This document shows, piece after piece, positions 23,468-26,543 of a stretch of 64,000 nucleotides of DNA; the first letter of the stretch is position 1; each line of letters opens with the position of its first letter. The position numbers were made by a program, and so were the translations under genes. Location of the stretch: positions 1 to 64,000 of the IMG/VR virus record IMGVR_UViG_3300033148_007251; one strand, 5' to 3'. The notes under the pieces are model-generated. The model did not search any database. It was not told where the DNA came from and worked only from the letters and a program-made list of their open reading frames with translations. The stretch comes from a virus.

Positions 23468-23566
23468 TTATCCCATAATGTTTTTACCGATATATAATGC
23501 TAACTTATTTAGTGCAAGTAATAGTTGTTTTTTTGTAATTTTATTCCCATTTTTAATACGTTTCAT
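23468..23566 (-). CDS. possible microprotein, 32 aa
   Basis: ATG 23566 lies inside the end of the upstream gene; the frame runs 32 codons (KKQLLLALNKLALYIGKNIM), a possible single amphipathic helix. No ribosome site stands out. Reported as a weak candidate for a 130-base gap. Confidence 0.25.
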   Translation of the reverse strand: MKRIKNGNKITKKQLLLALNKLALYIGKNIMG

Positions 23567-23723
23567 TAACAGCGTCTAATTTATCCATAAGCATTTCGAT
23601 ATGTTTTGTTTTCTGTACTCCTAATATAGATTCAATTGATACGTTTCCATGTAACAGTTGAACTTTATACACTTTATTTTGGGCTAACCATATTTCTTTT
23701 TTTTCGTTTATCATAGCATCCAT
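23553..23723 (-). CDS. small phage protein, unknown, 56 aa
   Basis: ATG 23723 behind AAAAAGGAGACAAAATA. Helical product (EKKEIWLAQNKVYKVQLL, then KTKHIEMLMDKLDAVN). Its leader carries the truncated hammerhead-like stem II/GAAAC remnant, the same position that complete ribozymes occupy before two neighbouring genes. Function unknown. Confidence 0.55.
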   Translation of the reverse strand: MDAMINEKKEIWLAQNKVYKVQLLHGNVSIESILGVQKTKHIEMLMDKLDAVNETY

Positions 23724-23745
23724 ATTATTTTGTCTCCTTTTTAAG

Positions 23746-23766
23746 GGTGTTTCGATTTCAAAAATC
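23746..23766 (-). other. truncated hammerhead-like remnant
   Basis: On the minus strand GATTT-TTG-AAATC followed by GAAACACC reproduces stem II, the GAAA box and the 3' strand of stem III of the ribozymes at 24291 and 24578. The CUGAUGA box is absent and stem I and the 5' stem III strand are not found. The stem II sequence is repeated once more at 23783-23795. Not expected to cleave. Confidence 0.55.
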
Positions 23767-23794
23767 TATTGCCTGTTTTTATGATTTCAAAAAT

Positions 23795-23996: not shown

Positions 23997-24269
23997 TTAT
24001 ATATATGGGATGTTTTGAGTTAACCATTTTTTGAGTTTTTTTTTACCCGTAAACGTTAGGTCTAATGTATTATATAACATTATTACATCTTCATATGATG
24101 CAATGATCATTTCATGTACCGCATCATAATAATGGGGTTCATTATCATATCTTTGATATCTCACTCTATAAAATAGAGGGTTTGGAATTATTTTTAATCT
24201 AATTTGGAAGTTGTCACCTTTTAATTTTGTGTTGTGTATACTTTTGTTTTGCAATATCAATATTTCCAT
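23997..24269 (-). CDS. small phage protein behind a hammerhead leader, 90 aa
   Basis: ATG 24269 follows GGGAGGTGATATTAAA. The product appears strand-rich with a basic centre (FQIRLKIIPNPLFYRVRY) and a final helix (LTFTGKKKLKKWLTQN). No family recognised. Its 5' leader is the hammerhead ribozyme at 24291-24344, only about 20 bases away, so self-cleavage would give it a defined mRNA 5' end. Confidence 0.6.
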   Translation of the reverse strand: MEILILQNKSIHNTKLKGDNFQIRLKIIPNPLFYRVRYQRYDNEPHYYDAVHEMIIASYEDVIMLYNTLDLTFTGKKKLKKWLTQNIPYI

Positions 24270-24290
24270 TTTAATATCACCTCCCTATAA

Positions 24291-24344
24291 AGTGTTTCGA
24301 TCTTTAAGATCTCATCAGTGACAGTCACATAACAGCCAGACACT
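24291..24344 (-). ncRNA. type III hammerhead ribozyme, copy 1
   Basis: Minus strand, 54 nt. Stem III is AGUGU (24344-24340) with ACACU (24295-24291). C17 is at 24339, so cleavage is expected between 24339 and 24338 after GUC. Stem I is a hairpin 24338-24319 (UGGC/GUCA plus GUU/GAC beyond a U-U mismatch). The core box CUGAUGA is at 24318-24312. Stem II is GAUCU-UAA-AGAUC (24311-24299), then GAA (24298-24296). Every conserved core base is present. It lies in the leader of the 90-aa gene. Identity is strong by pattern and by comparison with copy 2; activity is untested. Confidence 0.88.
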
Positions 24345-24391
24345 AAGAGCAGTTTAATGACTTGCTGAGGTCATTATATTAGATTGTAATG

Positions 24392-24559
24392 TTACTGAAT
24401 AATTTTTGCTGCCCAATCTGGAACATCCACTTCTTTGCCAGATTTATTTGTAATTTTATAATATCTACCATTATTGCCAATCTCAATGGTAGCACTATAA
24501 ATTTCTTTTTTTGTAATTCCCAACCAGCTTATTAATGTATCTGTTATTATGATTTTCAT
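24392..24559 (-). CDS. small phage protein behind a hammerhead leader, 55 aa
   Basis: ATG 24559 behind AAGGAGGAGCATT. The sequence begins MKIIITDTLISWLGITKKE and ends in DVPDWAAKIIQ; strand-rich middle (YSATIEIGNNGRYYKI). No family recognised. Hammerhead copy 2 ends about 20 bases upstream of the start, the same arrangement as for the next gene. Confidence 0.6.
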   Translation of the reverse strand: MKIIITDTLISWLGITKKEIYSATIEIGNNGRYYKITNKSGKEVDVPDWAAKIIQ

Positions 24560-24577
24560 AATGCTCCTCCTTTTTAA

Positions 24578-24633
24578 TAATGTTTCGATTTATAAAATCT
24601 CATCAGTAACAGTAATATAACTGTTAGACACTA
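24578..24633 (-). ncRNA. type III hammerhead ribozyme, copy 2
   Basis: Minus strand, 56 nt. Stem III is UAGUGU (24633-24628) with ACAUUA (24583-24578), one G-U pair. C17 is at 24627, cleavage expected between 24627 and 24626. Stem I is a perfect hairpin UAACAGU-UAUAUU-ACUGUUA (24626-24607). The box CUGAUGA is at 24606-24600. Stem II is GAUUU-UAU-AAAUC (24599-24587), then GAA. Compared with copy 1, stem I and stem II bases differ but pairing is kept (C-G to U-A in stem II), which argues for selected RNA structure. The cleavage triplet is GUC in both. Confidence 0.9.
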
Positions 24634-25115
24634 AGAGCATCCATTAGCTTGCCTTATATAATAAGGTAGAGGCATCCTGGTATGTCCATTCGGTTCTCAA
24701 TGCTGTTAGGTTTTTAGTAACCCTGCATGATGGAGTCCTTGACTATTTGTCGAGGCGTCTATTTTTTTATTTCAAACAAGATGTTTTTTAATGGGTTTAC
24801 TTGCTGGCACCGTTTCCCGTGTGCCTCTTGTTTGTTCTTGTTTATATAGTACTGCAAACCGTGTGCCATGTTGTTAAATAAATCGTAATAAATATTAAAA
24901 GTAATGTAAGTTACTTAAATTATTATGTATATATTTTATCAAGATAATTTAAATACCTTTTGTTTATTGTAAATTTAGCTATTTTAGATACATTTAAAAT
25001 TGGACTGGACTGGACAGTCATACACTTTTGTAAATATTTATAATAGAATCAATATATTATAAGATGAATACTCTAAATCATACACTCCTGGACAGTCGTA
25101 CACTTTTTAACCCTA
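24634..25115 (-). other. gene-poor early leader with hairpin
   Basis: About 480 bases without a convincing gene, upstream (in leftward reading) of hammerhead copy 2. It holds a GGCAC/GTGCC hairpin at 24806-24825 and a repeated GGCACACGG block. An AT-rich stretch lies at 24880-25000, with operator-like direct repeats at 25011-25107. It probably serves as a long 5' leader plus promoter region; no clear -35/-10 pair was found. Confidence 0.4.
25011..25107. repeat. operator-like direct repeats
   Basis: TGGACAGTCATACACTTTT at 25011-25029 recurs at 25089-25107 with one change, 78 bases apart. A partial TCATACACT copy lies at 25078-25086, and TGGAC is tripled at 25001-25015. Spacing close to whole helical turns and position in the early leader suggest binding sites for a phage regulator; none is identified in the window. 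Confidence 0.5.
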
Positions 25116-26273: not shown

Positions 26274-26322
26274 TATCCCCCTATTTTAAATTTATTTTTT
26301 TTAAATTTAAAATAGGGGGATA
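26274..26322. terminator. perfect 21-bp inverted repeat with T7 loop
   Basis: Arms 26274-26294 and 26302-26322 pair without mismatch; each has five C or G at one end and an AT-rich remainder, with a loop of seven T. There is no T-run after the stem on the plus strand, so ordinary Rho-independent termination is uncertain. Lying between two rightward promoters and next to AT iterons, it could be a terminator, a replication-origin cruciform or a protein site. Confidence 0.55.
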
Positions 26323-26405: not shown

Positions 26406-26543
26406 TGCACGCTTATATAATAAGGTATATCGATAATCATACCAAGGTAACAATAATTATTTAATAGCTAAAATTAAATAAAAAAAATTTACATTTAATT
26501 CAACTCATTATGGATAAAAATAAAAATATTTTGCCGTTGCCCC

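Follow-up and report, generated by a model that had tools for sequence, protein, structure and literature searches.

The 64,000-nt window analysed here, which belongs to an IMG/VR record of 75,279 bases, carries two complete type III hammerhead ribozymes in tandem on its minus strand, each standing directly ahead of a small gene. We consider it likely that the two hammerheads are processing sites dividing a read-through early leftward transcript. The record belongs to a tailed dsDNA phage. Its plus strand carries genes for terminase, portal, protease and capsid from 26.8 kb onwards, and its minus strand encodes homing endonucleases, helicases and an anaerobic ribonucleotide reductase; a tRNA search found none. 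The transcript and its genes are called early from this divergent layout only, in which replication genes lie on the minus strand and those for packaging and the head on the plus strand. Close to where the leftward block of genes starts, copy A of the hammerhead precedes a gene of 55 aa and copy B one of 90 aa; next on the minus strand come a 59-aa gene and a decayed third copy, which is followed by a 56-aa gene.

Copy A (24578..24633, minus strand) consists of stem III UAGUGU/ACAUUA, stem I UAACAGU/ACUGUUA and stem II GAUU/AAUC, with C17 at 24627, CUGAUGA at 24606-24600 and GAA at 24586-24584. Copy B (24290..24345, minus strand) consists of stem III AGUGU/ACACU, stem I UGGCUGU/ACUGUCA, which includes a U-U mismatch, and stem II GAUC/GAUC, with C17 at 24339, CUGAUGA at 24318-24312 and GAA at 24298-24296. 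Both sequences contain CUGAUGA, GAA, the A15.1-U16.1 pair and H17 after U16.1. In both copies, folding and alignment to a covariance model (R1, below) place three helices about the core, of which stems I and II are closed by loops and stem III is open. The loops of stems I and II are AU-rich and could touch each other, the contact on which fast cleavage at low magnesium depends. For the isolated 56-nt elements, the minimum-energy fold is the hammerhead, apart from one to two pairs; with longer flanks, thermodynamic folding favours non-hammerhead structures.

The model R1 was built from 66 other viral hammerheads, collected by a pattern of core bases only and excluding the window. It retrieved copy A with 49.6 bits (E 3.6e-11) and copy B with 48.7 bits (E 6.6e-11), and a third match was absent from the window at E values up to 10 and from the entire record at E values up to 1. 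A three-stem descriptor likewise gave two matches in the window vs none in 60 Markov-simulated 64-kb sequences. The family covariation score of the 66-sequence alignment was 0.913 vs 0.187 after shuffling, although covariation counts overstate the independent evidence because these sequences had been pre-filtered for paired stems. The initial annotation had described both elements as complete type III hammerheads, and its core bases, strand and coordinates agree with these results. It had also proposed a search with the Rfam model RF00008, which, run with an E-value threshold on the 75-kb record, matched both elements: copy B at 35.5 bits (E 1.8e-7) and copy A at 28.6 bits (E 1.5e-5), with scores for copy A ranging from 22.3 to 28.6 bits. 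Both scores fall below the RF00008 gathering cut-off of 48.5 bits, so that a default Rfam scan at that cut-off reported neither copy.

Between the two copies, 9 of 59 positions vary; every one of these is in stems I and II or the loops, and the core and stem III are unchanged. Two of the differences are double compensatory changes (stem II pair 4, U-A/C-G, and stem I pair 2, A-U/G-C); the others are one A-U to G-U wobble, one A-U to U-U change in stem I of copy B and three changes in loops. The earlier observation that stems I and II vary with pairing preserved, including C-G to U-A in stem II, is thus borne out, apart from that single U-U mismatch. Identity along the 59-nt repeat starts sharply at UGCUCUUA and stops at GAAACA. 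Judged by their sequences, the pair arose through duplication of a 59-nt unit, and both motifs are under selective constraint. The boxA-like 8-nt sequence UGCUCUUA stands at the 5' edge of copy B (24344..24351, minus strand) and recurs in copy A at 24632-24639; it occurs four times in the window when both strands are counted, twice at the hammerheads. A role as part of a general phage module was rejected: the exact window leader has no further viral match, and no other viral hammerhead of the set has the motif at that position.

A decayed third copy, overlooked in the initial annotation, lies at 23734..23767 on the minus strand, ahead of the 56-aa gene at 23553-23723. It keeps the stem II hairpin, GAAAC and the Shine-Dalgarno sequence (repeats D3 and D7) and lacks CUGAUG and stem I; R1 gave no match to it up to E = 10. 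Two intact copies and one decayed copy in the same operon amount to a natural live-versus-dead comparison.

According to the ORF list and its translations, copy A leads the 55-aa gene (24392..24559, minus strand; Shine-Dalgarno AAGGAGG at 24566-24572) and copy B leads the 90-aa gene (23997..24269, minus strand; Shine-Dalgarno GGGAGGTG at 24278-24285). From the end of each element it is 5-7 nt to the Shine-Dalgarno sequence and 18-21 nt to the ATG. The elements are therefore directly ahead of strong ribosome sites, as initially described, although the distance of about 20 bases given at that time is the distance to the start codon rather than to the ribosome site. Copy B lies 53 nt downstream of the stop codon of the gene before it, and copy A is preceded by ~480 nt of non-coding sequence. 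Neither the 55-aa nor the 90-aa protein has a relative among viral contigs or a PHROG match, and the comparison of 23.0-26.5 kb with phage records found no DNA similarity.

Just ahead of copy A on the minus strand, the non-coding segment 24640-24870 has a higher GC content and a folding z-score of -2.4, and may be a structured RNA with a 3' end that copy A would generate; a comparison of non-coding 24640-25100 with group I intron and other Rfam RNAs gave no convincing match up to E = 10. A near-palindrome, CCTTATTATATAAGG, is found at 24652-24666 (minus strand) and again, with one mismatch, at 26411-26425 between the divergent gene blocks. The direct repeat AAAAGTGTAYGACTGTCCAG, on the minus strand at 25010-25029 and 25088-25107, is intergenic, with its units 95% identical and 78 nt apart, and possibly represents operator or promoter elements. 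A 20-bp terminator-like hairpin with the stem ATCCCCCTATTTTAAATTTA is located between the divergent gene blocks, at 26275-26321.

The position of the window copies relative to genes recurs in other phages. The search pattern TGTC..CTGATGAG..CGAAACA, restricted to core bases, matched at least 120 stretches in viral contigs. Among the matches listed, a scan for three paired stems yielded 144 matches in 116 sequences, and quality filtering with removal of near-identical sequences left 88 non-redundant viral hammerheads, the two window copies included. Among these listed matches, 75 of 88 had the start of an ORF (ATG, 30 aa or more) no further than 45 nt from the GAA (median 30 nt), a placement found at 23% of random and 28% of shifted control positions. 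Because the pattern says nothing on start codons, this placement is not built in. Upstream, the stop of the preceding co-directional gene was at a median of 39-40 nt before the cleavage site, again among the matches listed. The survey of 88 viral examples fixes the place of the hammerhead, just ahead of start codons and just after the previous gene; its counts are of listed matches and do not measure prevalence. Hammerheads in leader position are common in phages among the viral contigs surveyed. When 42 contigs were searched whole, 40 had matches; most held a single copy, and 14 of the 40 held 2-5 copies. Downstream proteins were small, with 61% of at most 100 aa among the matches listed, and mostly without family, with exceptions that include HNH nucleases, an ATPase and ArdC-like anti-restriction proteins. 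These types (small orphans, few HNH, ArdC) agree with previous reports (PMC3088659, PMC6155905).

The survey also revealed a hairpin abutting the 5' side of the ribozyme. A strict hairpin was defined as a perfect one that has 6 or more bp, 3 or more of them GC pairs, and ends 0-12 nt before stem III. Within the 40 nt 5' of stem III, it was present at 51 of 88 viral hammerheads among the matches listed (L011-L127), 31 of them with no gap, compared with 9% of dinucleotide shuffles and 7% of random windows of the same loci; the mean folding z-score of the 40 nt was -2.6 vs -0.4. Other stop codons of the same loci had such a hairpin in the next 40 nt in 121 of 725 cases vs 50 of 88 at hammerheads (p 4e-15). 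Neither window copy passes the strict test. A weak counterpart, UAAUGAC-CUCAGCAA-GUCAUUA (24355..24376, minus strand), separates copy B from the stop of the 55-aa gene; two of its 7 bp are GC pairs, and its gap to stem III is 9 nt. We found no description of an abutting hairpin at phage hammerheads in the hammerhead literature examined, and no mention of one in the searched text of Perreault et al. 2011 (PMC3088659), so it is an apparent addition. Where such a hairpin abuts stem III, the short distance from the preceding stop offers scant space for a promoter, a point in favour of read-through RNA being processed. It is reasonable to suppose that the cut would leave the upstream mRNA ending in a protective hairpin, one element thus finishing one message and starting the next.

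Under the processing model that we favour, each hammerhead would fold as RNA polymerase passes and cut after C17, at 24627 in copy A and 24339 in copy B. The upstream product of each cut would be an RNA with a 2',3'-cyclic-phosphate 3' end; the downstream product would be a 5'-hydroxyl mRNA starting with the stem I hairpin, its Shine-Dalgarno sequence ~55 nt from the new end. Cuts at both copies would turn one read-through transcript into a separate unit message for each of the two small orphan genes. We infer cleavage, read-through transcription and a benefit in the form of an independent half-life or expression for each small gene. Hammerhead cleavage is known to yield a 5'-hydroxyl end (PMC10250234). 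RNase E acts poorly on such ends via its 5' sensor, though direct entry is common (PMC4191395), and E. coli seems to have no efficient kinase for them (PMC4191395, citing unpublished data). Together, these properties make a longer life of the cleaved mRNA plausible.

Processing is supported by the exact pair returned by R1, by compensatory changes that spare the core, by the placement ahead of start codons and by the contigs with multiple copies. Points against it are the U-U mismatch in copy B, the long-flank folds that favour other structures, and the terminase relatives without hammerheads. These relatives are five short contigs together with Marinitoga and Thermoanaerobacterium phages; hammerheads are absent from them, including three complete phage records (53.4, 43.7 and 41.9 kb), and the trait is therefore not shared throughout that wider group. 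There may also be a promoter between the genes, given the ~480 nt of non-coding sequence ahead of copy A. The processing role is directly testable by 5'-hydroxyl end mapping in dozens of phages.

Self-cleavage might instead turn translation on, with a leader that hides the Shine-Dalgarno sequence until the cut frees it, an explanation that we regard as unlikely. Its best case is copy A, where GAUGCUCUU (24633..24641, minus strand), on the 5' side of the element, could pair with the Shine-Dalgarno region of the 55-aa gene before cleavage. The duplex has an energy of -10.8 kcal/mol, and modelled accessibility rises from 0.20 uncleaved to 0.88 cleaved, placing copy A among only 4 of 82 leaders with a modelled gain above 0.3. 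Copy B shows no such gain in the same modelling (0.45 to 0.35). In the 82 leaders taken together, native 5' flanks conceal the site to no greater extent than swapped ones (0.589 vs 0.603, p 0.86), and native duplex energies with the Shine-Dalgarno sequence are no better than swapped ones. Shine-Dalgarno sequestration as a family-wide mechanism was thus rejected by flank swapping, and in the modelling it is only at copy A that a freed ribosome site is plausible.

That the hammerheads are passive passengers, hopping or being copied between phage genes with no benefit to the genes behind them, seems to us very unlikely. Such elements could leave a decayed copy in the same operon, be missing from the terminase relatives and precede genes that have no family in common, all of which is seen here, but they would not account for the intact core in both copies with its accompanying compensatory changes, nor for the non-random placement just ahead of start codons and the non-random abutting hairpin.

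The least probable explanation is that the pair makes circular RNA, excising a 288-nt RNA with the 55-aa gene whose ends rebuild a hammerhead and ligate into a circular mRNA. Cleavage of copy B would leave a 3' end of 13 nt (UGCUCUUAGUGUC) identical in sequence to the strand removed from copy A, and the two ends of the excised RNA could therefore come together as an entire hammerhead. Viroids and retrozymes make RNA circles by such end-rejoining (PMC7761336). Three points speak against this explanation, namely that the strand identity is equally expected from duplication and core constraint, that most contigs with phage hammerheads hold a single copy, and that Perreault et al. sought circular products in other tandem cases and detected none (PMC3088659).

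The same search pattern, applied to bacterial contigs at one genome per species (L128-L247), gave full three-stem hammerheads in at least 58 loci. Where a phylum is named, the bacterial matches listed are nearly all from Patescibacteria (CPR), often several per contig and beside orphan genes; 10 proteins flanking Patescibacteria hammerheads had no Pfam match. A boxA-like G[ACT]TCTTT follows these hammerheads, with 35 downstream matches among the 80 listed vs 2.4 expected over the whole 60 nt, and 33 of the 35 start 5-12 nt after the GAA, a few bases past stem III. The form G[AT]TCTTTGA occurs at L128, L138, L140, L154, L170, L176, L206 and others. Four Patescibacteria loci (L138, L141, L154 and L175) have GGAAGCAGAGCCTC in common, ahead of a hairpin and ~35 nt before stem III.

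Compared with known systems, both window copies share with Rfam RF00008 all core bases, three helices, an open stem III end and C17 after GU; they differ in their scores, which are below the gathering score (35.5 and 28.6 vs 48.5 bits). The roles of bacterial and phage hammerheads have been described as an open question (PMC6155905). In the haloviruses HF1/HF2, a hammerhead stands 13 nt ahead of an early helicase gene, with a mapped mRNA 5' end at most 3 nt from the cleavage site (PMC3088659). The window resembles these in having a hammerhead shortly ahead of a gene, "early" being inferred from layout in our case; the HF1/HF2 hammerhead is, however, a variant structurally analogous to one requiring high magnesium, in viruses of an archaeal host, whereas the window has a canonical core in two copies. 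The initial annotation was right that each hammerhead directly heads a small minus-strand gene, where a cut would set the mRNA 5' end, but the novelty that it saw in duplicated copies as leaders of microgenes does not hold, as hammerhead clusters beside small genes of phages have been in the literature since 2011 (PMC3088659) and more than one copy per contig recurs in our survey. Perreault et al. 2011 reported multiple hammerheads flanking single genes in prophages and proposed that they process long phage transcripts to gene-length mRNAs; three of the tandem arrangements cleave in vitro and one in E. coli (PMC3088659). De la Pena et al. 2017 noted that different prokaryotic hammerheads are often close together, flanking ORFs for small non-conserved proteins (PMC6155905). 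With two copies on one phage strand, each beside a small gene, the window shows the clustering that characterises the prophage examples, which likewise have several same-strand hammerheads, in a different phage and with different genes. Given these precedents (PMC3088659, PMC6155905), the window is a further case of a known arrangement.
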